Source: Roseomonas marmotae
Lineage (GTDB): Bacteria > Pseudomonadota > Alphaproteobacteria > Acetobacterales > Acetobacteraceae
Direction of reading: 5' to 3'
NCBI RefSeq assembly: GCF_017654485.1
Contig: NZ_CP061095.1
Coordinates: 206,501 to 270,500, forward strand
DNA: 64,000 nucleotides
A program made the translations under genes and the position numbers. The notes under the pieces were generated by a model that worked only from the letters and a program-made list of their open reading frames with translations, did no database searches and was not told the DNA's origin. Numbering within the stretch: the first letter of the stretch is position 1; each line of letters opens with the position of its first letter. Shown in pieces: positions 35,112 through 51,104 of the stretch.

Positions 35112-36062
35112 TCAGCGGTCTCCGCCGTCCCACCAGCGCACCACTTCCGCCATGCCGTCCCGCAGAGCGATGCGCGGCGTCCAGAGCGTGGCGGGGGGCA
35201 GGCTCGCGGGGTCGGCGCTCCAGTCGCGATGCAGCAGCTCCCGCGCCTTGCCATGGCCGAAGATGCCGCGCCTCCCGCTCAGCTTCGCCCAGAGGTCCGC
35301 CGACCACCCGGCGGCCAGGAAGACCGCGTCGGGCAGGCGCAGCAGGCGCGGCGGGCGCCGGCCCATGGCGGCGGCGGTGACGCTCAGCACCTCGGTGAAG
35401 CCGTAGCCGTCGTGGCGTGCATCGGAAACTTCGTAGCAGCCGCCTGATATCTCGGCGCCGCAGAGAGCAGCGATGGCATCGGCCAGGTCGGCGGCATGGA
35501 TCATGGCGATCCGTGGCTCGGGCGGCCCCGGCACGGCGGCGAAGGGTGCCGTCACGAGCCGGCGCAACGCCCTTCCCTCCTCGTCTCCGGGGCCGTAGAC
35601 CACGCCGGGGCGCAGGATGGTCCAGGCCTCCCCGCCAGCGGCGGCACGCGCCGCCGCCTCGCCCGCCCGCTTGCTGGCGGCATAGTGGGAGAGCTGCGGC
35701 GCCCGCGCGGCCAGCGAGGAGATCAGCAACCGCCGTGCCTCCGGCGCCTCCCGCGCCACCACCTCGGCCAGCAGGGCGGTGCCGTCGCGGTTGACGCGCA
35801 TGAAGCCGGCGAGGTCCGATGCCTTGGTCAGCCCGGCCAGATGCACCACCGCATCGGCACCGCGCACCAGCTGGGTCAGGGCGGCGGCGTCCTGCATGTC
35901 GCCCAGCACCAGCTCCATCGGCGCATCGGCCAGCAACGGATGCACAGGGTCGCGCCGTACCAGCATGCGCAGCCGCCAGCCGGCGCGGGCGAGCGCGGCC
36001 AGCGCATAGCGGCCGACGAAGCCGGTGCCGCCCGTCACTGCGACCAGCGGCGCCCCGCGCAT
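35112..36062 (-). CDS. NAD(P)-dependent epimerase/reductase, CerR (ceramide reductase)-like
   Basis: This is an extended SDR of 316 residues, NDUFA9-like: VAVTGGTGFVGRYALAALARAGW at the N-terminus, HLAGLTKASD, catalytic YAASKRAGE and LRPGVVYGPGDEE. In Caulobacter an NDUFA9-like protein (CerR) reduces the 3-keto group during ceramide synthesis and is encoded beside the acyl-ACP synthetase, exactly as here (five bases after the acyl-AMP ligase). Serine palmitoyltransferase and its ACP are encoded 13 kb to the right. Without that context it would be called a generic sugar-nucleotide epimerase. Confidence 0.8.
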   Translation of the reverse strand: MRGAPLVAVTGGTGFVGRYALAALARAGWRLRMLVRRDPVHPLLADAPMELVLGDMQDAAALTQLVRGADAVVHLAGLTKASDLAGFMRVNRDGTALLAEVVAREAPEARRLLISSLAARAPQLSHYAASKRAGEAAARAAAGGEAWTILRPGVVYGPGDEEGRALRRLVTAPFAAVPGPPEPRIAMIHAADLADAIAALCGAEISGGCYEVSDARHDGYGFTEVLSVTAAAMGRRPPRLLRLPDAVFLAAGWSADLWAKLSGRRGIFGHGKARELLHRDWSADPASLPPATLWTPRIALRDGMAEVVRWWDGGDR

Positions 36063-36067
36063 GGGCG

Positions 36068-37810
36068 TCAGGCGACCTGCTGGCTGGCGCTCGGGACCGG
36101 ACCGAATTCGCCGGCGAGATATTTGCGGCGCGACCAGGCCCGGCTCAGCTTGCCAGAGGAGGTCTGCACCAGCGCGCCCGGCGGCACCAGCACCACCCGG
36201 CCCTCCAGCCCGTGGCGGGCGCGCAGCACGCCGCCGACCTCGGCGATCAGCCGCTCCCGTGCCGTGGCATCGGGGGCGCCGCGCGCCTCGACCAGCAGCA
36301 CCACCGTCTCCTCGCCTTCCTCATCCACCGAGAAGGCAGCGACATCGCCAGTGCGCAGGTTGGGCAGCGCGTGCTCCACGGACCATTCCAGGTCCTGCGG
36401 CCAGATGTTGCGGCCCTTCACCAGGATCACGTCCTTGGCGCGACCGGTGATGACCACCTGTCCGTCCAGCATGTAGCCGAGGTCGCCGGTATCCAGCCAA
36501 CCGTCTTCCGAAAGCACCTCGGCCGTCCGCTCAGGCTGGCCGTCATAGCCCTGCATGATGCTGGGGCCACGCACGCGGATGCTGCCCACCTGCCGGTCCG
36601 GCAGGATCCGGCCAGCGGAATCGCGCACCTCCAGCTCATGCTCCGGCAGCACCTTTCCGCAGAGGACGAAGGGCCGGCGCCGCTCGGTCTGCGCGGTCGC
36701 GGGCACGGCCCGGCCCTCGGTCTCCAGCCGCGTCAGGTCGATCTCGTCGGTTTCGAAGCCCTGCTCCAGCTCGGCAAAGGATATGGCCAGCGTCGCCTCT
36801 GCCATGCCGTAGCTCGGCACCAGCGCCTCCCGCCGGAAGCCATGCGGGGCGAAGCCCTCGGCGAAGGCTTCCAGCACATGCGGGCGGATCATGTCGCCGC
36901 CCAGCCCGGCGACGCGCCAGGAGGAAAGGTCCAGCCCCTCCGGCGCGCTGGCGCGGCGGCGGACGCAGAGCTCGTAGCCGAAGCTCGGGCTGAAGGAGAG
37001 CGTACCTTTGTATTCCGAGAGGATCGACAGCCACATCATCGGCCGCCGGGCAAAGTCGGAGGTCGGCATCGCGTCGATCGAGAGCTGCCCGGCGATCGGC
37101 GTGAGCAGGAACCCGACCAGACCCATGTCGTGGTAGAAGGGCAGCCAGGAGGCGGTGCGGTCGCCCAGCCGCATCTTCAGCCCGTGCTGCATGATGCCGG
37201 AGGTATTGGCCATCACCGCCCGCTGCCGCACGGCCACGCCCGTCGGGTGCCGCGTGCTGCCGGAGGAGAATTGCAGATAGGCGATGTCATCCGGTCCGCT
37301 GGCCACGGGTGCCGCGGCGGCGGGCTGCACGCCGCGCATCTGCTCCACCGTGCCGAAGAACTTCAGGCCCATCCGCCCGGCCACCGGGGCCAGCCAGGGC
37401 ATGATCTCGCCGGGGACAAAGAGGGCGGCCGCGTGGGCTTCCTGCAACAGCCGCTCGACCTGCGCCACATAGGCCTCCCGCCCGCCGAAGGGCGGCGGCA
37501 GCGGCAGCGGCGCGGGCACCAGCCCGGCATACTGGCTGGCGAAGAAGGCGCAGACGAAATCCGGCGAGGTATCGGCCAGCATGGCCACCCGCTCTCCCCG
37601 CCGCAGCCCGGCGCCCAGGAGCCGGCCGGCCAGGTCCAGCGCCTGCTCCCGCAGGTCGCGATAGGTCAGGCTGGCGACATGCCCGCCGCGGATCGAATGG
37701 AAGGCGATGCCGGTCGCGCCGCCGGCCGCGTAATCCAGCGCCTCGGGCAGGGTCGCGAAATCGCCCCTGCGCAGCGGAAGGCCGCTCAAAGTCGGTATCG
37801 GAAGCGGCAT
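36068..37810 (-). CDS. Fatty acyl-AMP ligase, acyl-ACP synthetase (AasR-like)
   Basis: This is an adenylate-forming enzyme of 580 residues: P-loop FSSGSTRHPTGVAV, A5-type motif SYGMAEATLA, GYDG, LDTGDLGYMLDGQVVITGRAKDVILVKGRNIWPQDLE and a C-terminal lysine in SSGKLSRAWSRRKYL. Overall it follows the FAAL group, which passes acyl-AMP to an acyl carrier protein rather than to CoA. In Caulobacter the equivalent enzyme (AasR) charges the dedicated ACP used by serine palmitoyltransferase. It is the first gene of a two-gene leftward operon with the CerR-like reductase. A candidate promoter is at 37919-37945. Confidence 0.87.
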   Translation of the reverse strand: MPLPIPTLSGLPLRRGDFATLPEALDYAAGGATGIAFHSIRGGHVASLTYRDLREQALDLAGRLLGAGLRRGERVAMLADTSPDFVCAFFASQYAGLVPAPLPLPPPFGGREAYVAQVERLLQEAHAAALFVPGEIMPWLAPVAGRMGLKFFGTVEQMRGVQPAAAAPVASGPDDIAYLQFSSGSTRHPTGVAVRQRAVMANTSGIMQHGLKMRLGDRTASWLPFYHDMGLVGFLLTPIAGQLSIDAMPTSDFARRPMMWLSILSEYKGTLSFSPSFGYELCVRRRASAPEGLDLSSWRVAGLGGDMIRPHVLEAFAEGFAPHGFRREALVPSYGMAEATLAISFAELEQGFETDEIDLTRLETEGRAVPATAQTERRRPFVLCGKVLPEHELEVRDSAGRILPDRQVGSIRVRGPSIMQGYDGQPERTAEVLSEDGWLDTGDLGYMLDGQVVITGRAKDVILVKGRNIWPQDLEWSVEHALPNLRTGDVAAFSVDEEGEETVVLLVEARGAPDATARERLIAEVGGVLRARHGLEGRVVLVPPGALVQTSSGKLSRAWSRRKYLAGEFGPVPSASQQVA

Positions 37811-37918
37811 GAAGGCTCTCTCCGCCCAGATGCTCGGGCATGGCCAGATACAAGATCGCCTGCCCAGTCTCCGGCAGGCGTGGAGGCACTCCCTCAGCCC
37901 GGAAATGCGTCTGGCCTG

Positions 37919-37945
37919 CCTATAAGCTCAAGCCGATCCCGTCAA
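37919..37945 (-). promoter_or_regulatory. Candidate promoter for the acyl-AMP ligase operon
   Basis: On the minus strand TTGACG (37940-37945) is followed after 15 bases by TATAGG (37919-37924), in a locally AT-rich stretch about 110 bases upstream of the ligase start codon. The -35 match is good; the spacing is short of the ideal 17. The region also has to serve the divergent nucleotidyltransferase gene. Confidence 0.35.
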
Positions 37946-38080
37946 TCTTATGAGGGGCCGCCATGGTCCTGTGGCATGGCGCGGCGGACTGGCCGGTGCT
38001 AGATTCAGTCCTTACTCGGAGTTCGGGCCGGGTCCCGGCACCGCCGTGTGGCCGCGCCGCCAGCCGGCTCTTCGAGGCGG

Positions 38081-38872
38081 ATGAGGACCAGAACACTGCG
38101 CGCTGTCATTCTCTGCGCCGGCCAGGGCCGGCGTCTGATGCCCCTGACCGAGTTCAACCCGAAATGTCTTCTGCCAGTCGCCGGCATGCCCGTGCTGGAA
38201 TGGCAGCTGCGCGCCCTGGCGGCCAATGGCATCACCGATGTCACGGTCGTCACCGGCTTCGGGGCCGACCGGGTGGAGGCCATGCTGGCCGGGCTCGGCG
38301 ATTCCGCCGCCGGCGTGCGGCCGCGCTTCAACCCCTTCTACGCGGTGGCCGACAATACCGGCAGCTGCTTCCTGGCGCGGGACGTGCTGGAGCAGGGCAG
38401 CCGCGAGACTGGCGGCTGCCTGCTGCTGAATGGCGACACGCTGTTCGAGCCTGCCATCCTGCGCCGGCTGCTGGATGCGCCCGCCGCCCCCATCACCGTC
38501 ACCATCGACCGCAAGGCGCAGTATGATGACGACGACATGAAGGTCTCGCTGGCGGGCACGCGGCTGCTGGCCATCGGCAAGACCCTGCCGCCGGAACGGA
38601 CCCAGGGCGAGTCCATCGGCATGCTGCTTTTCCGCGGCGAGGGCGGCGCCCGCTTCGCCGCCGGCGTGGAAGCCGTGCTGCGCCGGCCCGACGGGCTGAA
38701 GCGCTGGTATCTCTCCGTCATCGATGCCCTGGCCGCGGAGATGGAGGTGCGGGTCGCCTCGATCGAGGGCCTCTCCTGGGGCGAGATCGACTTCCCGGCC
38801 GATGTGATGCGGGCGGAAATGCTGGGCCAGCGCTGGCGCGAGGCCGCGGCCACGGTGGCCGCGGCGGAGTAA
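38081..38872 (+). CDS. Sugar-/choline-phosphate-type nucleotidyltransferase
   Basis: This is a 263-residue NTP transferase that makes an NDP-activated small phosphate ester. The N-terminal signature is AVILCAGQGRRLMPLTEFNPKCLLPVAGMPVLEWQLRAL and the metal site is in CLLLNGDTLFEP. It resembles LicC-type cytidylyltransferases more than RmlA. In Caulobacter a nucleotidyltransferase of the sphingolipid locus (CpgD) is a phosphoglycerate cytidylyltransferase for the ceramide head group, and this gene is a candidate for the same or a related step (inference). ATG 38081 is chosen over a GTG at 38048. It is divergent from the acyl-AMP ligase operon. Confidence 0.83.
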   Translation: MRTRTLRAVILCAGQGRRLMPLTEFNPKCLLPVAGMPVLEWQLRALAANGITDVTVVTGFGADRVEAMLAGLGDSAAGVRPRFNPFYAVADNTGSCFLARDVLEQGSRETGGCLLLNGDTLFEPAILRRLLDAPAAPITVTIDRKAQYDDDDMKVSLAGTRLLAIGKTLPPERTQGESIGMLLFRGEGGARFAAGVEAVLRRPDGLKRWYLSVIDALAAEMEVRVASIEGLSWGEIDFPADVMRAEMLGQRWREAAATVAAAE

Positions 38873-38885
38873 GGGCGCGGCGCCC

Positions 38886-39650
38886 TCAGCCCCGCCGGGC
38901 CAGCACGGCCTCCGCCAGTTCCAGGTCGGCCGGCTTGTCCACATCGACGGCGGCCTCGGCGAAGGGCAGTTCCACCGCCGCCAGCCGGGTGCCGGTGCGG
39001 GCGCCCAGCGCCGCCAGCACGGCGGGCAGGCTGAGCAGGCCCAGCGCGAAGCGCAGCAGCACCCAGGGGCCCAGCAGCCTCACCATGGAGAGCGGCTTCT
39101 TCCGCTGCTGCTCCACCTGCCGCCAGAAATCCACCACGGCCCCGGCGCGCGCCGTGCCCATCCAGAAGAGATTGCAGCCGCTGAAGCGCCCGTCGCGGAA
39201 GCGCAGCCAGGTGCGGCGCGTCTCCGGCCAGGCGGCCAGCACCGTCTCCGCCCGCGCCAGACCGGCGGCGACATCCACGCCCGGCGGCAGGTCGGCCAGG
39301 AAGCGCCCCACCATGGCCGGGGTCAGCAGCGCGTGGTCGGCCGTCGTCACCAGCAGCGGAGCGCCGAATTCCGCCAGGGCGGCGGCCACGCTGCGGCTGG
39401 GCGAGCCTTCCGCCGGGCGCGGCAGCGCATTCCCCAGCGGGAAGCCGGCCAGGCTCCGCTCCGGCGCCTCGATCATCACGACGATCCGGGCGATGCCGGG
39501 GCTGGCCCGCAGCGCCGCCAGCACCCGCGCCAGCATGGGCACCCCGCCCACCGGCAGCAGCGCCTTGTGAGAGACGCCGGCCGCCAGCGCCATGGGATCC
39601 CGCGCGCCCTGCCGGCTGCCCGCCAGCACCAGGGCCGTCACGCCGGTCAT
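38886..39650 (-). CDS. MobA-like NTP transferase
   Basis: This is a 254-residue protein with an MobA/IspD-like nucleotidyltransferase core: ALVLAGSRQGARDPMALAAGVSHKALLPVGGVPMLARVLAAL, TTADHALLTPAMV and a C-terminal metal aspartate in AAVDVDKPADLELAEAVL. A hydrophobic insert (LLGPWVLLRFALGLLSLPAVLAAL, about residues 185-208) could touch the membrane. Its ATG overlaps the stop of the GNAT gene, so it belongs to the leftward HIT-lptF-lptG-GNAT-NTase operon. A head-group nucleotide activation role for sphingolipid is inferred from context; cofactor synthesis (MobA) is unlikely given the neighbours. Confidence 0.8.
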   Translation of the reverse strand: MTGVTALVLAGSRQGARDPMALAAGVSHKALLPVGGVPMLARVLAALRASPGIARIVVMIEAPERSLAGFPLGNALPRPAEGSPSRSVAAALAEFGAPLLVTTADHALLTPAMVGRFLADLPPGVDVAAGLARAETVLAAWPETRRTWLRFRDGRFSGCNLFWMGTARAGAVVDFWRQVEQQRKKPLSMVRLLGPWVLLRFALGLLSLPAVLAALGARTGTRLAAVELPFAEAAVDVDKPADLELAEAVLARRG

Positions 39651-40801
39651 GCCGCGATGTCCCTGCCGAAGACGCGATAGGTCTTGTAGGCCTTGCCGCC
39701 CACCGCCTCGGCCAGGCGGCGCATCGGCAGGTTGTCCTCCAGCACCCAGGACATCTCGATGGTGCGGATGCCCATGGCCCGGGCCTCCCGCCGCAGCGCG
39801 TCCACGATGAAGAGCGGCAGCACCCGGCCCAGCATGCCCCGCGCGACATCCCGCCGCACGCCCATCAGCGGCACGCGGGCGGTGCCGGGCAACCTGTGCC
39901 GCAGCCGCCAGAGCAGCTTCGCCCAGCCGAGGGGCAACAGCCGGCCGCCGAGGTCGCGGATCGCCTCGTTCAGGTTGGGCAGGCAGACGGCGAAGGCCAC
40001 CGCCTGCCCCTCCATCTCCGCGAACCAGACCAGCCTCTCGTGCAGCAGCGGCTTCAGGCTGGAGGCCATGGCATCCACCTCCTCCCGGGTGATGGGCACG
40101 AAGCCCCAGTTGCCGGCCCAGGCCTCGTTGAAGATGTCCACCAGCCGCTCGACCTCCCGCCGCAGCTCCGCCCGCCGCAGCGGCCGCAGAACCACCCCCG
40201 GCGGCAGGCCGCGCGCCACCAGCTGGGCGGCGGCGGGGGTGGGCGGCAGGGCCGTCTCCACCCGGTAGGCGAGCAGGTCCTTCTCCCGCTCATAACCGAG
40301 GGCCTGGAGGTGCCGGGCGGCATGGGGCGGGTCATGCGGCATCATCAGCATGGGCGGGGTGTCGAAACCCTCCACCAGCAGCCCGCTTTCCTCATTGATC
40401 GAAAGGCTGAAGGGGCCGGTGATGCGCCGCACGCCACGCGCCGCGCACCAGCCCTCCGCCACCTCCAGCAGCGCGGCATGGACGGTGGCGTCATCCCCCG
40501 CGGCCAGCAGGCCGAAATGCCCGGCCGGGCTGCCATCGGCCATGGGGGGGGAGAGCCGGTCCTGCTGCGCGCTGATGCGCCCCACCACCTCGTCATCCCG
40601 CAGCGCCAGCCAGAAGGCGGCCTCGGCATGGCGGAAATAGGGGTTCCGGCGGGGAGAGAGGGTCATGCGACGCTCCATCCGCAACGGCGGCACCCAGTTC
40701 GGGTCGCCGCGCATCAGCCGCTCCGGCAAGCGGATGAACCGCTCCATGGCGGCGCGGCCGGAGACCGGGACGATCTCCACCCCATGGCGCTGGTGCATCA
40801 T
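39647..40801 (-). CDS. GNAT-family N-acyltransferase, candidate bacterial ceramide synthase
   Basis: This is a 384-residue GNAT-fold protein. The N-terminal part shows FIRLPERLMRGDPNWVPPLRMERRMTLSPRRNPYFRHAEAAFWLA and VGRISAQQD, and the C-terminal part ITREEVDAMASSLKPL, VAFAVCLPNLNEAI and MSWVLEDNLPMRRLAEAVGGKAYKTYRVF, typical of this large GNAT subgroup. The bacterial ceramide synthase of Caulobacter (bCerS) is an acyl-CoA-dependent GNAT protein encoded in a comparable locus. It overlaps lptG by four bases upstream and the MobA-like NTase by four bases downstream. If bCerS, it N-acylates the sphingoid base at the inner membrane. Confidence 0.78.
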   Translation of the reverse strand: MMHQRHGVEIVPVSGRAAMERFIRLPERLMRGDPNWVPPLRMERRMTLSPRRNPYFRHAEAAFWLALRDDEVVGRISAQQDRLSPPMADGSPAGHFGLLAAGDDATVHAALLEVAEGWCAARGVRRITGPFSLSINEESGLLVEGFDTPPMLMMPHDPPHAARHLQALGYEREKDLLAYRVETALPPTPAAAQLVARGLPPGVVLRPLRRAELRREVERLVDIFNEAWAGNWGFVPITREEVDAMASSLKPLLHERLVWFAEMEGQAVAFAVCLPNLNEAIRDLGGRLLPLGWAKLLWRLRHRLPGTARVPLMGVRRDVARGMLGRVLPLFIVDALRREARAMGIRTIEMSWVLEDNLPMRRLAEAVGGKAYKTYRVFGRDIAA

Positions 40802-41862
40802 TGTTCCTCGAAGCGGATCAGCAGCATGCCGCCCAGGGCGGCGAAGACGATGGGTGCGGTCCAGACGGAGAGGGCCACCGGCGCCACTCCGGCCTCGCCC
40901 AGCGCGGTCAGCAGCCCACCCAGCAGCAGATAGCCGAGCCCCAGGCTGAGGCCCAGCAGCGGCCGGAGCCCCCCGCCGCCCCGCCGGGGCATCTCAAAGG
41001 CCACGGGCGCGGCCAGCAGCAGCATCAGGAAGGGGGCCAGCAGCCGCGCGAAGCTGTTCTGCAGCCGCGTGGCATAGAAGGCCGGGCCACGGTCCACCGC
41101 CTGTTCCCGCCGCAGCGCGCGCAGCAGCCACCAGGGGTCCTGGGATTCCGTCGGCCTGGCGAGCTCGATGATCTCGGCGGGCGGCGGGCCCTCCGGCCAG
41201 GGGCGCGTGGCCTGCCGCACCAGCCTGGTGCCGCCGGGCTCGGCCACCCGCACGCCCTGGAGGGTCCAGCCGGCGCCGTCATGCACGGCACTGTCGGCCT
41301 CGATCCGCGCCCGGGCCACGCCATCCTCGGCCCGCGGCACCAGCAGCAGGCCCTGGAGATGCGCGCCATCCAGCGAAACCCGGTCGATGCCGACGATCTG
41401 CGAACCCGCGCGCAGCCAGACGCGGGGCGGGGCGGAGGCCGGCGCCAGGGCGCGGCTCTCGGTGCTTTCCCACCATTCGGCCAGCATCCGCTCCGTGCGT
41501 GGGGCGACGAAGCCCAGCAGTACCCCCTGCGCCAGCGCCGCCGCCAGGCAGACCGGAAGCAGCGTCACCAGCACCCGGCGCACCGGAATGCCGGACGCTC
41601 GCAGCGCCGTCATCTCCAGCGTCATGGCCAGGCGGCGAAAGGTGAGCATGCCCGCCACCAGCGTCGCCAGAGGCACCATCTGCCCGAGCACGGTGGGCAG
41701 CCGCAGCGCCGCGTAGCGTGCGAGATCCTCGATGCCGCCGCGGTGCAGCACCTCGCTGGCGCGGTCCAGCAGGTCCAACAGTTGCAGCAGCGCCGCCAGC
41801 CCCAGCAGCGCCGCCAGGAAGCGGCCGATGAAAATCCGGGAAAGATACCGGCGGCGGATCAC
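40798..41862 (-). CDS. lptG: LptG-type permease (YjgQ family)
   Basis: This is a 354-residue inner-membrane protein of the LptF/LptG family with six predicted helices around a periplasmic jellyroll-like domain (about 140-255). It opens with the family segment YLSRIFIGRFLAALLGLAALLQLLDLLD and LTFRRLAMTLEMTALRASGIPVRRVL, which in LptG contacts LptB. It overlaps lptF and the GNAT gene by four bases each. In a canonical setting it exports LPS with LptB2F. Here the surrounding sphingolipid genes raise the possibility of a dedicated sphingolipid exporter. Confidence 0.87.
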   Translation of the reverse strand: MIRRRYLSRIFIGRFLAALLGLAALLQLLDLLDRASEVLHRGGIEDLARYAALRLPTVLGQMVPLATLVAGMLTFRRLAMTLEMTALRASGIPVRRVLVTLLPVCLAAALAQGVLLGFVAPRTERMLAEWWESTESRALAPASAPPRVWLRAGSQIVGIDRVSLDGAHLQGLLLVPRAEDGVARARIEADSAVHDGAGWTLQGVRVAEPGGTRLVRQATRPWPEGPPPAEIIELARPTESQDPWWLLRALRREQAVDRGPAFYATRLQNSFARLLAPFLMLLLAAPVAFEMPRRGGGGLRPLLGLSLGLGYLLLGGLLTALGEAGVAPVALSVWTAPIVFAALGGMLLIRFEEQ

Positions 41863-43169
41863 GGGCGGGACTGCCCGGGCGACGAGGCGACGGGCCGCTC
41901 CGTGGCGGAAGCGCGTGGGCGGCGGCGCGGCAGCCAGGCGCCGAGTGCGGAGGTCATGCTCTCCAGCCGCTGCAGCACGGCATCGAAGGGCCCTTCATAG
42001 GGGTTCCGGTTCGCATGGCGGAAGGCCATGAGGGAGAAGAGGGCGAAGAGGCCGAAGATCCCCCAGAGCGCCGGGGCGGGGTTGATCAACCCGATATCGC
42101 CCAGCGATTCCGCGAGCTGCACCGCGTGGTGGTAGATCACCAGGATCACGGCCGAGAGCGCCACGCCCTGCCAACGCCGGGTGCGCTTGGCGCCAAGGCC
42201 CATCGGGATGGCCAGCAGCGGCAGCAGCGCCATGGAGAAGGAGCGGACCAACCGGCCGTTCAGTTCCCCTTCCAGCCGACGGCGCGGGACATCCGGCTCC
42301 CCCGGGCCCGGCGGCCCGTCCCTGCGGGTGGCCGCCCAGAGCTCGCCCAGCGTCATCTCCCGCTCGTCATTGCCGCGGAAGCGGAAGGGGTCGATGGTCA
42401 TGCTGAAGGGGCGTGTGATGGCAGAATCGCCGAATTGCAGCGTCGTCACTTCCCCCTGCGGAGAGATGGAGATCTGCCTGCCGGCCTCGAGTTGCAGCAG
42501 CAGCGTGCCTTCCGCTGGCTGCCGGGTCAGCCAGCCGGTGCGGGCCGTGGTGGTGACCTGCGTGCCGTCCGGCCGTTTCTGCTCGATGAAGATGCCGCCC
42601 AGCTGCCCGGTCCGGGGATCGACCACATCGGCGCTGACGGCGAGGTTCTTGCCGATGCGGATGAATTCCCCGGCGCCGACCGTGGCGTTCCAGCCCGCAT
42701 GCGTCACGGCATAGAAGGCGGCGCGGTAGCTGTAGCGGCCGAGCGGCTGCAGGTAGCCGTAGATCACGATCCCCGCCAGCGCCAGCAGCACGCCGACCAG
42801 CAGGAAGGGCCGGGCCAGCCGGGCAAGGGAGAGGCCGCTGCTCTGCAGGGCATCCAGCTCGTGATTCTCGCTGAGCCGGGTGATGACGGTGAAGACGCTG
42901 ATGAAGAACGCCGCCGGCAGCGCCAGGCCTATGTAATGCGGCGTCAGGAAGACCAGCAGCTGGATGACCGGGGCGATGGCGCCATTGCTGCTGGCGACGA
43001 GGTCGAACAGCCGCAGCAGCCGCTCCAGCAGCAGGGCCGGCAGCACCACCATCAGCGTCGCCAGCAGCGGCCGGCCCAGCAGGCGCAGCAGGTAGCGCGA
43101 CACCAGGGGGCTGGCGAATGTTCCGGCCAGGGGCGGCCGCCCGGCAACTGTGGCGGGGGTGCCCTCCAT
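41859..43169 (-). CDS. lptF: LptF-type permease (YjgP family)
   Basis: This is a 436-residue partner of LptG with the same six-helix plan: YLLRLLGRPLLATLMVVLPALLLERLLRLFDL at the start, the coupling helix SENHELDALQSSGLSLARLARPF, a large periplasmic domain (about 145-285) and C-terminal helices. A proline/arginine-rich cytoplasmic tail of about 40 residues follows. Its ATG overlaps the stop of the HIT gene (TGATG), and its end overlaps lptG. Gene order HIT-lptF-lptG-GNAT-NTase in one tightly coupled operon is unusual for a housekeeping LPS exporter. Confidence 0.88.
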   Translation of the reverse strand: MEGTPATVAGRPPLAGTFASPLVSRYLLRLLGRPLLATLMVVLPALLLERLLRLFDLVASSNGAIAPVIQLLVFLTPHYIGLALPAAFFISVFTVITRLSENHELDALQSSGLSLARLARPFLLVGVLLALAGIVIYGYLQPLGRYSYRAAFYAVTHAGWNATVGAGEFIRIGKNLAVSADVVDPRTGQLGGIFIEQKRPDGTQVTTTARTGWLTRQPAEGTLLLQLEAGRQISISPQGEVTTLQFGDSAITRPFSMTIDPFRFRGNDEREMTLGELWAATRRDGPPGPGEPDVPRRRLEGELNGRLVRSFSMALLPLLAIPMGLGAKRTRRWQGVALSAVILVIYHHAVQLAESLGDIGLINPAPALWGIFGLFALFSLMAFRHANRNPYEGPFDAVLQRLESMTSALGAWLPRRRPRASATERPVASSPGQSRP

Positions 43170-43612
43170 CAGGCCGGCAGACCGGCCCAGCCTGCCCGCA
43201 GCCTCGTCACGAGGTCCCGCAGTTGCGCCGCGTCCGGCGTCACAGCCTTGCCCAGCGCCGGGGGACCGGGCCAGCCGGCATCAGGCACCCTCAGCCCGGC
43301 ATGCTCACGCTCGCCCTCATAGCGGGGGATGACGTGGAAATGCACATCCGGGTCCATCATCATCAACATGAGGTAGTTAATTTTCTCATATTGCGTAAAT
43401 TCCCGCAGCAGGGCCTCGATCCGCGTGACCACGCTGCCCAGTTCAGCGAAGGCAGCGGGGCTGACATCGCCGAAGGCCTGTACCGGCTCGCGGCAGATCA
43501 GCGCCAGACTGCCGAGGGTGGGTTGTTCCGGGCGCACCAGCACGGCCCAATGCGCCGTCTCGCCGACCAGGGTCGTGGGGTAACCGAATTTGCTCAGCGT
43601 CGCACTTGCCAT
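43169..43612 (-). CDS. HIT-family protein
   Basis: This is a 147-residue histidine-triad superfamily protein. The triad is DVHFHVIPRYEG (H-x-H-x-x near residue 90), with the upstream conserved block GETAHWAVLVRPEQPTLGSLALICREPV. HIT proteins hydrolyse or transfer nucleotidyl groups from phosphate esters. The third histidine of the canonical HxHxHxx is replaced here (HFHVIPR), as in several HIT subfamilies. ATG 43612 is chosen; the longer frame to 43873 overlaps the divergent DUF2141 gene. As the first gene of the lptFG operon, it may process a nucleotide-activated head group (inference). Confidence 0.83.
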   Translation of the reverse strand: MASATLSKFGYPTTLVGETAHWAVLVRPEQPTLGSLALICREPVQAFGDVSPAAFAELGSVVTRIEALLREFTQYEKINYLMLMMMDPDVHFHVIPRYEGEREHAGLRVPDAGWPGPPALGKAVTPDAAQLRDLVTRLRAGWAGLPA

Positions 43613-44180
43613 TCTGCGTCTCGGAAGCCTGAGGGGGACGGGACACTCACCCCGCAACATAGTCCTTCCGGCCACCGGGGACGAGAGGGAGCGCAAGCGC
43701 GGGCATGTTCTGGCGGCGGGGCTGCTGGCGGCGCTGCTGACGGCGGCGGCGGCGCCGGCACTGGCGGCGGACCCGGTGGCCGGCACCTGCGGCGCCCCTG
43801 GCGCGCCCGAGGGGCCGCATATCCAGGTGGTCGTGACGGGTGCGCGGAAGGTGGCAGGCAACATGACCATCACCCTCTATGGCCCTCGCTCCGAGGCCTT
43901 CCTGGCACGTGGCGGCAGGCTGGCCCGGCAGCGCGTGCCGCTGAGGAGCACCGAGGCGCAGGCCTGCTTCGCCGTCTCCGCCCCCGGCGACTACGCCATC
44001 GCCGTCTATCACGACGAGGATGACGACCATGACTTCAAGCGCACGGCTCTGGGCCTGCCGGCCGAGGGCTATGGCTTCTCCAACAACCCCTCCACCCTGC
44101 TGGGCCTGCCGAGCTTCAACTCGGTCCGCTTCCGTGTAGGAGCGGCGGGGGCGCAAATTCCCATCAGGCTGCGCTACTGA
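43590..44180 (+). CDS. DUF2141 family secreted protein
   Basis: This protein of up to 196 residues carries a signal peptide (KRGHVLAAGLLAALLTAAAAPALA) and a DUF2141 domain: GPHIQVVVTGARKVAGNMTITLYG, FAVSAPGDYAIAVYHDEDDDHDFKRTALGLPAEGYGFSNNP. DUF2141 proteins are small, beta-rich and periplasmic, with no established activity. The start is uncertain: TTG 43590 lies inside the start of the divergent HIT gene, and no ATG precedes the signal peptide, so a nearer non-ATG start around 43660-43720 is likely. Its end overlaps the convergent phosphoesterase by 17 bases. Confidence 0.78.
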   Translation: MLSVALAILRLGSLRGTGHSPRNIVLPATGDERERKRGHVLAAGLLAALLTAAAAPALAADPVAGTCGAPGAPEGPHIQVVVTGARKVAGNMTITLYGPRSEAFLARGGRLARQRVPLRSTEAQACFAVSAPGDYAIAVYHDEDDDHDFKRTALGLPAEGYGFSNNPSTLLGLPSFNSVRFRVGAAGAQIPIRLRY

Positions 44181-45087
44181 ATGCCGCGCCTGCCGGGACG
44201 GTGCCCAGCGCCAGCCCCCATCGGCCGGTGGTGCGGAACCGCCCCTCCGCCGGGTCGTAGCGGCGTATCACGGCCCCCAGCACCCAGCCGCCCGCGGCGC
44301 GGGTGATGCGGTAGAGGTTCCAGCCGCCCATGTGGCGATGCCCTTGCCCGGCCAGCGCCTGCGGCACGCCGATGGCGGGAAGCAGGCTGCCCCCGGGGCC
44401 GGGCAGCGGCACCAGCGCGGGGCGGTGGCTGTGGCCATGCAGCAGCAACTCCGCGCCCTGCCGTGCCAGGACTTCCAGCAACGCCGCGCGGTCCCGCAGG
44501 CCGCGCCGCCGGTTCTCGCCGATCGGCGGATGATGGATCAGCACCACGCGGCACAACCCCTGCCGCCCGGATTCCGCCAGCAGCGCCGAAAGGCCTTCCA
44601 GCTGCGCCGGCCCTAGCCACCCGGCCGCCGAGCCCGGAGGTGTCGGCACCGCGCTGGAAAGGCCGATCAGCGCCACCTCGCCCATCCGGCGCAGAAAGGG
44701 AAAGCCCTCCCGGTCCGGCCCGTCCCCGCGCATCCACTCGGCCCAGAGGCCCAGCCCCTGTGCCCAGGGCACGGGCACCAGCGCGTCATGGTTGCCGGGG
44801 ATAGCCACCACCCGCGCGGGCCGGCCGAGCCTTTCCAGGAAGGCGCGGCCGGCGGCGAATTCATCCGGCAGGGCGAAATGGGTCAGATCCCCTGTCACGG
44901 CCACGGCATCCGGCGCGAAGCTCTCCAGATCCTCCAGCAGCAGGTCTGCCGGCAGCTCGGCGCGCCGCTGGCGCTTGCGTTGCCAGGCAAGGTAGGACAG
45001 CAAGCGCTTCCCAAGCAGTTGCCGGACACCCGGCAGGGCCTGGGGCGGCAAGTGGAGATCCGAGAGATGGGCGAGAACCAGCGTCAT
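44164..45087 (-). CDS. Calcineurin-like metallophosphoesterase
   Basis: This is a 307-residue metallophosphoesterase with all metal motifs: LAHLSDLHL (D-x-H), AVTGDLTHFA (GD), IPGNHDALV (GNHD), LIHHPPIG and LLHGHSHRPAL (GH-x-H). There is no signal peptide or membrane helix, so it is cytoplasmic. In the sphingolipid island it may remove a phosphate from a phosphorylated lipid or head-group precursor, but related enzymes have many substrates. Its start overlaps the divergent CDP-alcohol phosphatidyltransferase by 21 bases if that gene starts at 45067. Confidence 0.87.
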   Translation of the reverse strand: MTLVLAHLSDLHLPPQALPGVRQLLGKRLLSYLAWQRKRQRRAELPADLLLEDLESFAPDAVAVTGDLTHFALPDEFAAGRAFLERLGRPARVVAIPGNHDALVPVPWAQGLGLWAEWMRGDGPDREGFPFLRRMGEVALIGLSSAVPTPPGSAAGWLGPAQLEGLSALLAESGRQGLCRVVLIHHPPIGENRRRGLRDRAALLEVLARQGAELLLHGHSHRPALVPLPGPGGSLLPAIGVPQALAGQGHRHMGGWNLYRITRAAGGWVLGAVIRRYDPAEGRFRTTGRWGLALGTVPAGAAFSSAA

Positions 45088-46266: not shown

Positions 46267-46271
46267 GGCGA

Positions 46272-47225
46272 TTGGCCCGCATCGCCATCCTGAGCAACCC
46301 GCGTAGCAGCAGCCACCGCGCCGGTCGTGCCGCGCTGGCCGAGGCCGCCGCGCGCCTGCCCCATGCGGCGCCGGAGAGCCGCGAGGCTCTGCGCGCCGCC
46401 CTGGCCGGCTTCGCCGCCGGGGGGGTGGACCTGCTGGCCGTGCATGGCGGCGACGGGACGCTGCGGGAAGTGCTGAGCGCGCTGCCTCAGGCCTGGACCG
46501 GCCCGATGCCCGCCCTCGCGCCCCTGGCCGCCGGCCGCACCAATCTGGCTGCCCATACCCTGGCGCCGGAGCGGCGGGCGCGGGACGGAGATGTCACGGG
46601 CCTCCGGCACCTGCTGACGGCGGCGGCGGAGGGGCGGCTGCGGCGGCAGGCCCGGCCGGTGCTGGAAGTGCAGGGCCATGCCGGCCCCGGTGCCGCGCCG
46701 CTGCGCGGGCTGCTCCTCGGCGCCGCCGGGTTCACCGAGGCCATCCGGCTGGCCGAGAGCCGGCTGCACCGGCACGGGCTGATGAACAATGCCGTGGTGG
46801 GCATGACCGCCCTGATGGTGGCGGCGCAGACCCTGACCGGGCGCGGCGATACCGGCCGCCGGCTGCGGCAGGGCACCCCCATGTGGGTGGCGCGGGATGC
46901 CGGCGCGGCCGAGGAAGGCGCCCGCTTCATGCTGCTGGCCACCACGCTCGACCGGCTGATGCTGGGCCTCTGGCCCTTCTGGGGCGGAGGGCCGGGAGCC
47001 ATCCGCCTGCTGGACGTGGCGGCGCCGCCACGGCACCTCGGGGCCGGCCTCTGGCGCCTGCTGCGGGGCCGGACGCCGGACCTGCCGGGCTGGCGCAGCG
47101 GATGCGTCGGGCAGTTGCAGGTCGGGCTGCAGCAGCCCTTCGTGCTGGACGGGGAGATCTTCGAGCCGGGGCCGGAGGGCATCCGCATCACGGCTTCCGA
47201 ACCCCTGACCTTCGTCGCGGCATGA
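46272..47225 (+). CDS. Diacylglycerol/sphingoid-type lipid kinase
   Basis: This is a 317-residue DAGK-catalytic-domain protein that phosphorylates a lipid hydroxyl using ATP. The nucleotide motif is LLAVHGGDGTLREVL (GGDGT), preceded by ILSNPRSSSH and followed by LAPLAAGRTNLAAHTL, where kinases usually have GTAND. The start is TTG 46272, five bases after the upstream stop, with GAGG in the stop region. In Caulobacter a homologous kinase in the sphingolipid locus (CpgB) phosphorylates ceramide. Given the neighbours I expect ceramide or sphingoid base as the acceptor. Its stop overlaps the next gene by four bases. Confidence 0.85.
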   Translation: MARIAILSNPRSSSHRAGRAALAEAAARLPHAAPESREALRAALAGFAAGGVDLLAVHGGDGTLREVLSALPQAWTGPMPALAPLAAGRTNLAAHTLAPERRARDGDVTGLRHLLTAAAEGRLRRQARPVLEVQGHAGPGAAPLRGLLLGAAGFTEAIRLAESRLHRHGLMNNAVVGMTALMVAAQTLTGRGDTGRRLRQGTPMWVARDAGAAEEGARFMLLATTLDRLMLGLWPFWGGGPGAIRLLDVAAPPRHLGAGLWRLLRGRTPDLPGWRSGCVGQLQVGLQQPFVLDGEIFEPGPEGIRITASEPLTFVAA

Positions 47226-48178
47226 GCAGGGCGCTGGAGGCCCTGACGGAGCGGGTGGCGGCGGAGATGGCGGTGCCGGCCTCCCCTTCCCCGGCCATGG
47301 CGGCCGCCATGGCGCTGGCGCGGGACATCGCGGCAAGCCACGGCGGCTCGGTGCGGGCGGTGCTCTTCTACGGTTCCTGCCGGCGCAGCGGCGAGACCTC
47401 GGGGCTGCTGGACCTCTATGTGGTGCATGACGGCCACCGGGCCTTCCATGGGGCCGGCATCCCGGCCCTGCTGAACGCGCTGCTGCCGCCCAATGTGATG
47501 CAGCACCGGGCCGAGGTCGCCGGGCTGGGCGAGGTGCGGGCCAAGGTGGCCGTGCTGTCCCGGCGGCAGTTCGAGCGCCGGCTGAGCGCCGCCTCGCTGG
47601 ATACCACCATCTGGGCCCGCTTCTGCCAGCCGGCCACCCTGGTCCATGCCCGGGACGCCGAGGCCGCCGCCTGGGCCCATGTGGCGGGGGCGCGGGCCTT
47701 CATGGCGGCCGCGCTCTGGGCTGCGAGGCTGGGACCACGGCGCGGCGCCCCCGCCGCCTTCTGGCGGGCGCTCTTCGCCCATACCTATGGCGCCGAGCTC
47801 CGCGCGGAGCGGCAGGGCCGGGGCGGCAGCATCCATGATGCGGCGCCGGACTGGTTCGACGGCAACCTGCCGCTGGCCTTCGCGGCGCTGGGGCTGGATG
47901 GGGTGCCCGACGCAGAGGGGCAACTGGCGCCCGGCCCGCCGCCCTCCTGGCGCTGGCCGGCCGGCTGGGCGCTGCGGCGCTGGCTGGGCAAGCCCCTGAA
48001 CATCGCGCGGCTGGTCAAGGCCGCCTTCACCTTCGAGGGCGGTGCCGACTACCTCGTCTGGAAGATCGAGCGCCATTCCGGCGAGCGGCTGGCACTCACC
48101 GACTGGCAGCGCCGCCACCCCATCGCCGCCGCGCCGCGCCTGCTCTGGCGGCTCTGGCGGCGCGGGGCGGTGCGCTGA
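47222..48178 (+). CDS. Tam41-like nucleotidyltransferase (CDP-lipid synthase type)
   Basis: This is a 318-residue protein that I align by eye with mitochondrial Tam41, a CTP:phosphatidate cytidylyltransferase. The Pol-beta-type site is AVLFYGSCRRSG (GS) followed by LLDLYVVHDG (D-x-x-V). Later segments match Tam41 in order: ARDAEAAAWAHVAGARAFMAAALWAA, FWRALFAHTYGAELR and the C-terminal KAAFTFEGGADYLVWKIERHSG. No membrane helices are evident. It overlaps the lipid kinase by four bases, so kinase product and nucleotidyl transfer are probably consecutive steps. Activation of ceramide- or sphingoid-phosphate with CTP is my hypothesis. It ends 12 bases from the convergent spt stop. Confidence 0.72.
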   Translation: MSRALEALTERVAAEMAVPASPSPAMAAAMALARDIAASHGGSVRAVLFYGSCRRSGETSGLLDLYVVHDGHRAFHGAGIPALLNALLPPNVMQHRAEVAGLGEVRAKVAVLSRRQFERRLSAASLDTTIWARFCQPATLVHARDAEAAAWAHVAGARAFMAAALWAARLGPRRGAPAAFWRALFAHTYGAELRAERQGRGGSIHDAAPDWFDGNLPLAFAALGLDGVPDAEGQLAPGPPPSWRWPAGWALRRWLGKPLNIARLVKAAFTFEGGADYLVWKIERHSGERLALTDWQRRHPIAAAPRLLWRLWRRGAVR

Positions 48179-48190
48179 CGGCGCGGGGCG

Positions 48191-49405
48191 CTACTCGGCG
48201 GCGGAGTTGACGGCGATGTCGCCCACCATGCCCAGCGCCTGGCCGATGGCACGGATGGTCGCCAGGGCATGGTCGATCTGCTCCGGCGTATGATCGGCGC
48301 AGATGCTGGTGCGCAGCAGCGGCTTGCCTTCCGGCGTCGCCTGACCCAGCGCCAGGTTGACATAGACCCCTTCGTCCAGCAGCCGGTTCCAGAAGAGGAT
48401 CGCCACCTCCTGGTCCGGGCAGCGGATGGAGGCGATGGGGCTGGCCACCGGGCCGAGGCTGAAGCCCGCCGCCAGCAGGCCCTCGTGGAACTGGCGGGCG
48501 TTGCGCTGCAGCCGCACCCGGCGCAGCGGCTGGCTTTCCATCACCTCGATCGCCCGTGTCACGGACGCGATGACGGAGGGCGGCAGCGAGGCCGTGAACA
48601 TGTAGGGCCGCGAGGTCAGGCGCAGCAGGTCGAAATCCTCGACATCCGAAGCGCAGAAGCCGCCCACGGCGCCCAGGCTCTTGCTGAAGGTGCCGACGAC
48701 ATAGTCCACACCGTCCTCGCAGCCCTCGGCCTCGGCCAGGCCGCGGCCATTCTCGCCCAGCACGCCCAGCGAATGCGCCTCATCCACCAGCATCCAGGCG
48801 CCGGCCTCGCGCTTGACCTCGACGAAGTCGCGGAGCGGGGCGGTGTCGCCCAGCATGGAATAGATGCCCTCGACCACCACCAGCTTCTCGCCAGGCTGGC
48901 TGGCCAGCAGGCGCAGGCGGCGGCGCAGGTCCTCGGGGTCGTTGTGGCGGAAGCGCGTCACCTGCGCGCCGGCCAGCTTGGCGCCGTCATAGATGCTGGC
49001 ATGGCTGTCGGCGTCCAGCAGCAGGTGGTCCTTCGGCCCCGCCAGCGCCGCCATCGTGCCCAGGTTCGCCTGATAGCCGGTGGAGAAGACCATGGCGGAG
49101 CGGCGCTTGAGGAAGGCGGCCAGCCGCCGCTCCAGCCCCGAATGCCCGCCATAGGAGCCGTTGGCTATCCTGGAGCCGGTGGTGCCGGTGCCCTCATGCT
49201 GCAAAGCCTCGACGCCGGCGGCGATGCAGCTCTCATCGAAGGTCAGGCCGAGATAGTTGTTGGTGCCGAGGAGCAGCACGCGGCGGCCACCGAGCAGCGC
49301 CTCGGTCGCCGAGACGACCCGGTCGAAGACCACGCCGAAGGGGTCGCGTCCCGCGGAGGCCACCGCATCGCGGGCCTCGCGCAGCTTCCGGTATTTCGCC
49401 AGCAC
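48191..49405 (-). CDS. spt: Serine palmitoyltransferase (alpha-oxoamine synthase)
   Basis: This is a PLP-dependent enzyme of 404 residues that condenses serine with a fatty acyl thioester to 3-ketosphinganine, the first step of sphingolipid synthesis. It shows GTNNYLGLTFDE, GTGTTGSRIANGSYGGHSGLERRLAAF, DADSHASIYDGAKLAG, EGIYSMLGD, VDEAHSLGVLGENGRG and the Schiff-base lysine in GTFSKSLGAVGGF. It starts with GTG two bases after the ACP stop. An adjacent dedicated ACP distinguishes SPT of this type (Sphingomonas/Caulobacter) from KBL and BioF. It is cytoplasmic or membrane-associated. Confidence 0.9.
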   Translation of the reverse strand: MLAKYRKLREARDAVASAGRDPFGVVFDRVVSATEALLGGRRVLLLGTNNYLGLTFDESCIAAGVEALQHEGTGTTGSRIANGSYGGHSGLERRLAAFLKRRSAMVFSTGYQANLGTMAALAGPKDHLLLDADSHASIYDGAKLAGAQVTRFRHNDPEDLRRRLRLLASQPGEKLVVVEGIYSMLGDTAPLRDFVEVKREAGAWMLVDEAHSLGVLGENGRGLAEAEGCEDGVDYVVGTFSKSLGAVGGFCASDVEDFDLLRLTSRPYMFTASLPPSVIASVTRAIEVMESQPLRRVRLQRNARQFHEGLLAAGFSLGPVASPIASIRCPDQEVAILFWNRLLDEGVYVNLALGQATPEGKPLLRTSICADHTPEQIDHALATIRAIGQALGMVGDIAVNSAAE

Positions 49406-49407
49406 GC

Positions 49408-49650
49408 TCAGGCGACCCGTGACGCTGCCAGGATCTGGACGAGATCGCCAACGGTCTCGATCTCAGCCATCTGGTTCATCGGGATGATCGTGTCGAACTG
49501 GGTCTCAACCTGCATGATGAAGTCCATGACCGCGACGGAATCAAGGTTGAGATCCTGCAGGATATTCGTGTCAGCCGTGACCGGACGGGAGACCCCTACC
49601 ACCGACTGGATGGCAGCGACCACGCTCCGGTAAATCTCGTCCTCTGGCAA
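49408..49650 (-). CDS. Acyl carrier protein dedicated to sphingolipid synthesis (AcpR-like)
   Basis: This is an ACP of about 80 residues. The phosphopantetheine serine is in ILQDLNLDSVAVMDFIMQVE, flanked by the expected helices (EIYRSVVAAIQSVVGV and IPMNQMAEIETVGDLVQIL). Start TTG 49650 gives a standard ACP length with GGGGG nine bases upstream; an ATG at 49713 would add 21 atypical residues. It sits immediately ahead of spt, as in Caulobacter and Sphingomonas, and probably carries the acyl chain supplied by the acyl-AMP ligase at 36-37.8 kb. A drop in GC content and a candidate promoter lie upstream. Confidence 0.87.
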   Translation of the reverse strand: MPEDEIYRSVVAAIQSVVGVSRPVTADTNILQDLNLDSVAVMDFIMQVETQFDTIIPMNQMAEIETVGDLVQILAASRVA

Positions 49651-49715
49651 TGAAAGAGCCCCCAAGGTGCCGGCCGGTGCCCCCCGGCGCCGTTCGTGAC
49701 GAATGCAAGTCATAA

Positions 49716-49744
49716 AAGCTAAGACAAACCAACTGAATTGTCAG
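49716..49744 (-). promoter_or_regulatory. Candidate promoter for acp-spt
   Basis: On the minus strand CTGACA (49739-49744) and TAGCTT (49716-49721) are separated by 17 bases. They lie in the only distinctly AT-rich patch of the area, overlapping the last codons of the flippase gene. The -35 match is five of six and the -10 match is weak. Confidence 0.3.
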
Positions 49745-51104
49745 GTGGTGGAATGAAAGGGCTGGCATTCGAATGTCGCAGGGCAGCCATGGCGGTTCCC
49801 GCCTGGATCGCCGCCATCGTGGCAGCCATGGCGATGGAAGCCAGCCCCGCCCCCCAGAGCCCGGCCAGATGCATGCCGGTGAGGGCGGCAGGCACATAGA
49901 GGACCGCGCCGGCCAGCCGGGCCTTCAGCGCCGCACCCTGGCGGTCGATCGACATCAGCAGGGGTTCCAGCGCGAAGCTGGCGAAGCCGATACCGGAGGC
50001 GATTCCCAGCAGCATCATGACCGGATAGGCCGGCAGCGCCTCCGCCCCGCCCACCAGCCGCAGCAATGGCTGCCCCAGCAAGGCCAGCACCACCAGCAGC
50101 AGCGCCGAGCCGGCGGTGGAGGCCAGCAGCGCCCGGCGCAGCAGCGCGCCGATGGCACGGCGGTCGCGTGAGGCGGCGAGCCGCGCCAGCTCCGGGAAGA
50201 TGGCCGGGCTGAGGAAGCGGCCGGGCTTCAGGGCCGCCTCCCCGATCTGCCGCGCGATGGCGAAGAGCGCGGCCTCGGCCGGCCCCAGCACCGCGCCTGC
50301 GCAAAGCGCGCCCAGATGGCCGGAGGCGAGGGAGAGGGTGGCGGTGAGATTGGTGGTCCAGACGAAGGACCAGATGCCCGGATGAACCCGGGCGGCCGGC
50401 GGCGGCCGGCCCTCCCCGGCATCGCCGATCAGCCCGCGCTTCCTCAGCTCCCGCCAGGCGGCATAGACCAGAGAGAGGCCGCCCACGGCGGTCGCGATGT
50501 ACCAGACGGTCAGGAAGGCCGGCAGCCCGAGGCCCAGGAAGAAGGCGAGGCCGGCGCCGGCCAGCCGCACCAGCGCGCCGAGCGTGTCCCGCGTCGCCAG
50601 CACGTCGAATCGGTTGAACAGCCGCAGCAGCCCGGTGGGCGTGGCCATGACCATGAAGGCCGAGGAGGTGGCGTAGAGCGCCGCCATGCCCGCCAGTTCC
50701 GGCGCGATGTTGAAAAGCCCGCCGAGCCACCAGGCCACGGCGGCGCAGATCGCCATGCCCCCCAGGGCGGCGCCGGCATCCAGCCCGGCGGTGAAGCGGA
50801 CCAGGCTGCGGAACTCGGCGCGCTGCCCATGCTCCAGACTCGCGGCGCCGTAGCGCAGCACCGCCTGCCAGGACTGGAACTTGGTGATGGAGGAGGCGGC
50901 CTGCGCGAAGGCATGCATCAGCACCAGCACGCCGAAGGTCTCCACGCCCAGGGCGCGGAAGGCCAGGCCCGTGGCGGCGAGGTTGATCAGGCCCATCGCC
51001 GCCTTGCCACCCAGCATGGTCCCGGCATTTCGCAGCAGGCGCCGGGTGATCGTGTCAATATTGGCAGCCGTGGCGAGTCGCTCGCCCTCGGAGGATGCTG
51101 TCAC
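49719..51104 (-). CDS. Wzx/MATE-type polysaccharide or lipid flippase
   Basis: This is a 461-residue inner-membrane protein with about 12-14 helices, of the polysaccharide-biosynthesis (Wzx/MVF) type. It opens ITRRLLRNAGTMLGGKAAMGLINLAATGLAFRALGVETFGVLVLMHAFAQAASSITKFQSW, a pattern typical of O-antigen flippases. It is directly upstream of acp and spt on the same strand. It could flip a decorated sphingolipid or a polysaccharide intermediate, but no glycosyltransferase gene is present in the window, which favours the lipid idea (inference). Confidence 0.85.
   Translation of the reverse strand: MTASSEGERLATAANIDTITRRLLRNAGTMLGGKAAMGLINLAATGLAFRALGVETFGVLVLMHAFAQAASSITKFQSWQAVLRYGAASLEHGQRAEFRSLVRFTAGLDAGAALGGMAICAAVAWWLGGLFNIAPELAGMAALYATSSAFMVMATPTGLLRLFNRFDVLATRDTLGALVRLAGAGLAFFLGLGLPAFLTVWYIATAVGGLSLVYAAWRELRKRGLIGDAGEGRPPPAARVHPGIWSFVWTTNLTATLSLASGHLGALCAGAVLGPAEAALFAIARQIGEAALKPGRFLSPAIFPELARLAASRDRRAIGALLRRALLASTAGSALLLVVLALLGQPLLRLVGGAEALPAYPVMMLLGIASGIGFASFALEPLLMSIDRQGAALKARLAGAVLYVPAALTGMHLAGLWGAGLASIAMAATMAAIQAGTAMAALRHSNASPFIPPPDNSVGLS

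Follow-up and report, generated by a model that had tools for sequence, protein, structure and literature searches.

The window analysed here, a 64,000-nucleotide stretch of Roseomonas marmotae (C5:206501-270500, on the 320,239-bp contig C5, NZ_CP061095.1), holds at positions 35112..51104 an island of 16 genes resembling the Caulobacter cluster that makes ceramide and converts it to ceramide diphosphoglycerate (CPG2). All genes named in the original prediction, which was made from the letters alone, are present where it had placed them, most of them recognised by Pfam and NCBIfam scans, including spt, the acyl carrier protein, the ligase, the reductase, the GNAT protein, and the head-group and export genes; a DUF2141 gene between the HIT and phosphoesterase genes had been overlooked. 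Where open reading frames (ORFs) overlapped, the strand was settled by protein homology. Choosing genes by GC content at third codon positions was abandoned in favor of homology, having picked a wrong minus-strand ORF (46487-48118) and omitted the HIT and phosphoesterase genes. The genes are listed below with their best family scores and their identity to Caulobacter vibrioides DSM 9893 (locus L175); the comparison is with that strain and not with strain CB15, and the HIT gene is matched to CC_1157 by position.

35112..36062, minus strand: cerR, NDUFA9-like ceramide reductase, orthologue of CC_1164 (PF01370, 81 bits; 47% over 97%)
36068..37810, minus strand: aasR, fatty acyl-AMP/acyl-AcpR ligase, CC_1165 (NF006624, 790.9 bits, cut-off 600; 52%)
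38048..38872, plus strand: cpgD, CTP:phosphoglycerate cytidylyltransferase, CC_1152 (PF12804, NTP_transf_3, 48.6 bits; 53%)
38886..39650, minus strand: second MobA-like nucleotidyltransferase, CC_1153 (PF12804, 51 bits; 2dpw, 84 bits; 52%)
39647..40801, minus strand: cerS (bcerS), GNAT-type ceramide synthase, CC_1154 (PF00583, 27.8 bits, cut-off 20.7; 50% over 97%)
40798..41862, minus strand: lptF2, second LptF/LptG permease, CC_1155/CC_1156 pair (PF03739, 208 bits; 36%)
41859..43169, minus strand: lptG2, second LptF/LptG permease of the same pair, F and G labels being arbitrary (PF03739, 208 bits; 36%)
43169..43612, minus strand: HIT-domain protein, position of CC_1157 (PF01230, 24.2 bits, cut-off 21.5; 59%)
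about 43590..44180, plus strand: DUF2141 protein, probably secreted, start uncertain (PF09912, 93.7 bits)
44164..45087, minus strand: metallophosphoesterase, CC_1158 (PF00149, 45.9 bits; 42%)
45184 (likely start)..46266, plus strand: cpgA, CDP-alcohol phosphotransferase, CC_1159 (PF01066, 48.7 bits; 51%)
about 46272..47225, plus strand: cpgB, ceramide kinase, CC_1160 (PF00781, DAGK_cat, 34.7 bits; 36%)
47222..48178, plus strand: cpgC, predicted Tam41-fold nucleotidyltransferase, CC_1161 (predicted model matches Tam41; 42%)
48191..49405, minus strand: spt, serine palmitoyltransferase (SPT), CC_1162 (NF047599, 637 bits, cut-off 500; 61%)
49408..49653, minus strand: acpR, dedicated acyl carrier protein, CC_1163, in an ORF opening at 49713 with the start placed by homology (PF00550, 44.7 bits; LDSV site; 39%)
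49719..51104, minus strand: Wzx-like flippase, CC_1166 (sub-threshold family scores, PF01943 26.8 bits against 28.2 and NF041503 22 bits against 300; 35% to the C. vibrioides cluster flippase)

All five ceramide genes (Spt, AcpR, AasR, CerR, CerS) are thus present, as is the head-group set of CpgA, CpgB, CpgC, CpgD, CC_1153 and CC_1158. Elsewhere in the genome lie another LptF/LptG pair (C1:965472-967734), bringing the total to two, and two more Spt-like enzymes of the alpha-oxoamine synthase family (C1:48150-49244 and C5:175884-176957, 34% and 32% identity), both below the SPT family cut-off.

In Caulobacter crescentus a 17-gene cluster, CC_1168-CC_1152, covers ceramide synthesis, conversion to CPG2 and candidate export (PMC11324152). 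It is divided there into five ceramide genes, six genes needed for ceramide phosphoglycerate (CPG) and CPG2, LptC2/F2/G2 and the flippase as presumed exporters, and CC_1167 and CC_1157, termed probably unrelated. For eleven of the genes with counterparts in the island, mutants showed a part in making ceramide, CPG or CPG2; that study did not extend to export. A search of genome contigs with a CpgA alignment, of which the best 80 of 589 relatives were examined, included C. vibrioides DSM 9893. Its order reads CpgD(+) CC_1153(-) CerS(-) LptF(-) LptG(-) HIT(-) phosphoesterase(-) CpgA(+) CpgB(+) CpgC(+) Spt(-) AcpR(-) CerR(-) AasR(-) flippase(-), and 15 of the 16 window genes are syntenic with it in order and orientation, except that the AasR-CerR pair lies beyond CpgD in the window. 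The 15 pairs, which comprise the ceramide genes, cpgA-D, CC_1153, the CC_1158 phosphoesterase, HIT, lptF2/G2 and the flippase, share 35-61% identity over 83-99% coverage, and the block is also collinear in Roseomonas relatives. Since it keeps its order in other genomes, the block is not a chance assemblage. Judged by sequence and gene order, the island is very probably orthologous to the Caulobacter CPG2 cluster and represents it in the Roseomonas group on a plasmid-like replicon, and the earlier proposal that a sphingolipid is made, phospho-decorated and exported stands as the best-supported reading, given the syntenic orthologues and the Caulobacter mutants (PMC11324152). The island is a new and complete instance of an already described cluster type; what it adds is a prediction for the HIT protein, the plasmid setting and fold support for CpgC.

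The prediction for the HIT protein follows from its inheritance. SPT neighbourhoods, mostly 20 kb, were compared across 80 genomes, and many Acetobacteraceae loci were seen to possess AasR, AcpR, Spt, CpgB, CpgC, the phosphoesterase, LptF/G and CC_1153 without CpgA, CpgD or HIT. A whole-genome co-inheritance search then covered 64 SPT-positive and 16 SPT-negative genomes: the selection took 80 of the roughly 148 SPT-positive genomes seen, for the most part a single one per genus, dropped 16 as incomplete or redundant (G015, G333, G386, G675, G507, G041, G068, G166, G132, G110, G116, G101, G218, G584, G661, G549) and added the 16 SPT-negative ones. CpgA (alignment A1) was found in 23 of the 80, 22 matches being full-length and one, in G013, a contig-cut match of 73.5 bits; the count excludes G028 (43 bits), weak or second matches, and weak CpgA-like matches (24-243 bits). 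CpgD (alignment A5) reaches at least 302 bits in precisely these 23 genomes, a count that excludes six genomes at 97-127 bits (G002, G006, G012, G019, G028, G035); alignment A5 was used here because an older iterated profile took in a paralogue (in G099, G129, G131, G255 and G658). The HIT subfamily (alignment A2, E 1e-15, lowest match 183 bits) is present in 21 of the 23 CpgA-positive genomes and absent from all 57 others (Fisher 2.5e-17, for genomes that are not independent and query alignments that include some of the genomes searched).

Proximity accounts for only part of this pattern. HIT and CpgA lie within 5 kb in 15 of the 21 genomes and on the same contig in 18, but in three drafts they occupy different contigs, and in 13 of the 23 CpgD does not lie within 15 kb of CpgA on linear coordinates (in G264 the distance may be shorter when measured over the plasmid origin, and draft contigs may be neighbours); the two are about 130 kb apart in the five-contig genome G480. 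These separate-contig and distant cases indicate that co-inheritance is not merely linkage. When mapped onto a tree of the SPTs from 63 of the 64 SPT-positive genomes, the CpgA label requires at least eight changes and HIT at least nine. HIT is likewise found in 74 of the best 80 loci retrieved with CpgA as bait; in five of the six misses (L151, L186, L197, L204, L209) the sequence breaks off no more than 1.2 kb upstream of CpgA, while in L203 it does not. Among the 16 dropped genomes five were positive for CpgA, with HIT adjoining it and a CpgD-type gene, called with the older profile only, on the other side in G507 and G675; HIT was not seen in the 3.3-kb piece of G333.

The HIT protein itself carries the motif D[PK][DH]VHFHV[ILV]PRY, where the HIT superfamily has HxHxHxx. 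The second and third histidines of the triad are invariant in nine aligned members, and the first is aspartate in seven of them. Its nearest PDB profile match is 2oik (2.5e-10), and Fhit is among the five matches; it differs from Fhit and the bacterial HIT family in that mostly aspartate first triad position and in an inheritance that ties it to a lipid pathway.

The first genes on C5 are parA and parB (G000:C5:1-2361), in keeping with a plasmid or chromid, and a ParA match within the first 400 bases is found also on C2, C4, C6, C8 and C9 of the same assembly, as in rotated circular plasmids. No exact overlap of the C5 contig ends was found, and RepC was found on C4 and not on C5; C5 is likely a plasmid. 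The Caulobacter cluster, in contrast, is chromosomal. Spt-like matches (E 1e-70) occur in 25 plasmid records, 12 of them Roseomonas plasmids of 358-441 kb, and the same 12 match CpgC. The full cluster was read in two of these: R. haemaphysalidis p546-2 (NZ_CP061179.1) keeps the window's order for all 16 genes, and R. mucosa p1-AD3 (NZ_CP034903.1) has all 16 rearranged. The R. mucosa cluster (L040, p1-AD3 154826-196010) adds three glycosyltransferase-annotated genes (ELM1/GtrOC1, GT4, GT39) and a sterol-desaturase-family gene, which suggests a further glycosylated or hydroxylated sphingolipid. SPT exceeds the family cut-off in only 5 of 17 genomes of the window's genus, and the Spt search is passed by 100 of 299 genomes of the family (E 1e-75) and by 49 of 385 of the class (E 1e-80). 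The flank on the MYG1 side is common to G000 (the window's genome), G001 and G013, and the flanks in G007 are different; with differing flanks around the same cluster, the block behaves as a unit. The SPT tree sets the 13 CpgA-positive Acetobacteraceae rows together and apart from the remaining rows of that family (support 100/97), and the window Spt groups with other Roseomonas-group SPTs.

Taken jointly, these data make it reasonably probable that the lipid trait in its entirety, a kind of outer-membrane lipid served by exporter genes of its own, resides on plasmids in the Roseomonas group and is accessory there, and that the HIT protein is an unrecognised CPG2 enzyme, inherited with CpgD and CpgA as a three-gene module that would add the second phosphoglycerate and contributing a nucleotide-processing step. 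In the pathway proposed, AasR would load a fatty acid onto AcpR, Spt would condense it with serine, CerS would attach the amide acyl chain and CerR reduce the keto group. CpgB would then phosphorylate ceramide, and CpgC, as a Tam41-type cytidylyltransferase, may convert ceramide-1-phosphate to CDP-ceramide, giving CPG. For CpgC no Pfam family matched at E 0.01, but its predicted model does match the Tam41 fold. Sequence identity to Tam41, the mitochondrial and bacterial CDP-diacylglycerol synthase, is 11%, and the lipid substrate of CpgC is presumed to be ceramide-1-phosphate rather than that of Tam41; the predicted fold supports a CDP-ceramide step. In the last branch CpgD would make CDP-glycerate, from which CpgA would transfer the second phosphoglycerate to yield CPG2. 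CpgA retains the CDP-alcohol phosphotransferase motif DxxDGxxARx8GxxxDxxxD, invariant in all nine rows of alignment A1. The HIT protein would most likely act here as a CDP-glycerate pyrophosphohydrolase clearing wrong isomers (Caulobacter CpgD accepts 3-phosphoglycerate and L-2-phosphoglycerate too), or else as a nucleotide-removing enzyme. The flippase and LptF2/LptG2 may finally move the lipid towards the outer membrane with a shared LptC. The activities of Spt/AcpR, CpgB and CpgD, and the mutant phenotypes, are taken from published Caulobacter work; what the present analysis itself establishes is which genes these are, their synteny and their co-inheritance.

Several observations weigh against parts of this picture. 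The HIT gene is missing from two CpgA-positive genomes, G343 and G491, both of which have, immediately after LptF/LptG, an additional CpgA-like CDP-alcohol transferase (L107:18123-19334 and L118:2030-3430, Pfam-checked for L107); such a second gene is also found in G399 and G468, where HIT is retained. In Caulobacter, mutants of CC_1157 displayed no high cofitness with the cluster, and the gene is called probably unrelated in PMC11324152, the only paper to concern it among the matches listed by a literature search made mostly without subscription papers and supplementary files. Caulobacter mutants place CC_1153 and the phosphoesterase at the step from CPG to CPG2 (PMC11324152), but among the 25 CpgA-negative loci with CpgC the CC_1153-type nucleotidyltransferase is found in 22 and the phosphoesterase in 19, a poor fit with that published role. 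CerR is reported to be periplasmic (PMC11087976), which is hard to reconcile with cytoplasmic ATP/CTP chemistry on ceramide. By position, LptC2 (CC_1168) and CC_1167 are the two L175 ORFs adjoining the flippase; a search of the 320-kb replicon at E 1e-3 gave no match to either. The single LptC copy of the genome lies on C1, so LptF2/LptG2 would need to share it. This absence is compatible with cluster membership, since N. eutropha, A. vinelandii and P. luteola lack the same two genes and are yet expected to make CPG2 (PMC11324152).

The cofitness result and the published label of the gene as probably unrelated speak for regarding the HIT gene as a mere cluster passenger with no part in CPG2 synthesis. 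This is unlikely, although it deserves consideration: genome-wide co-inheritance with both CpgA and CpgD extends to the three drafts in which HIT and CpgA are on separate contigs, other cluster genes do occur without CpgA, and at 59% identity between the window and C. vibrioides the HIT protein is better conserved than CpgB (36%) or CpgC (42%).

There is only a small probability that CpgD and CpgA act on another phospho-alcohol, such as phosphocholine or inositol phosphate, so that the product is not CPG2. The CpgD fold family does include phosphocholine and other cytidylyltransferases, with CTP:phosphocholine cytidylyltransferase 1jyk and nucleotidyl transferase 4jd0 among its solved relatives, and plasmid copies of CpgD are annotated as 'phosphocholine cytidylyltransferase family'. 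Against this, window CpgD matches its C. vibrioides counterpart at 53% identity over 89%, its score with the CpgD profile is 413 bits where the paralogue in the host reaches 97.7, and its entire partner set is conserved. Residues R29, K39 and D130 (window numbering) are invariant in the 11 rows of alignment A5, and from their spacing they appear to correspond to R16, K26 and D112 of the Caulobacter CpgD active site (PMC12275187). As a separate observation, a CpgD-like paralogue stands with a distant CDP-alcohol transferase in loci L087 (G099), L094 (G129), L095 (G131), L103 (G255) and L130 (G658), and no CpgB or CpgC match was found in these pieces; perhaps a phospho-headgroup is transferred directly to ceramide there.

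The original prediction had gone further, considering the arrangement and the extra enzymes to exceed the Caulobacter locus. The aasR-cerR placement at the far end, the missing LptC2 and CC_1167 and the added DUF2141 gene, the only differences, do set the window apart from C. vibrioides, but for the enzymes named this claim is contradicted: nucleotidyltransferases, kinase, CDP-diacylglycerol-synthase-like protein, CDP-alcohol transferase, phosphoesterase, second LptF/LptG and flippase are all listed in the published 17-gene cluster (PMC11324152) and found in L175. The DUF2141 gene, absent from the C. vibrioides cluster, is present in that of C. segnis, and the chance of a new pathway is very slight. 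That these are unrelated genes merely resembling ceramide enzymes, as generic and weak Pfam matches (GNAT 27.8 bits, HIT 24 bits) and the two other Spt-like enzymes at 32-34% identity might suggest, has a practically nil likelihood in view of an Spt score above the equivalog cut-off, and cluster-wide orthology and synteny already contradict it.

Co-inheritance thus singles out a specific and easily tested candidate, the HIT protein, that an earlier genetic study set aside. Because the cluster is present on large Roseomonas plasmids, including one of the human skin bacterium R. mucosa, closely related bacteria can differ in this lipid trait, which may come and go with a replicon.

Wherever the DUF2141 gene was found, in 22 loci of one set and 32 of another, a cluster gene lies no more than 600 bp away; the two sets share several genomes, and in 20-kb pieces proximity is partly expected. 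Its predicted fold is beta-rich, and comparing the model with the PDB gave nothing at an E-value of 0.001 or lower. Assigning it to the module for the second phosphoglycerate was considered and rejected: it is found in 6 of 23 CpgA-positive and 13 of 41 CpgA-negative SPT loci, and so tracks the ceramide genes and not CpgA. A periplasmic, sphingolipid-associated protein is possible. In 54 loci, a figure that counts several genomes twice, DUF2141 neighbours ceramide or CPG genes, as it does in the window and in L158, L040 and L039; some of the pieces lack any CPG head-group gene.

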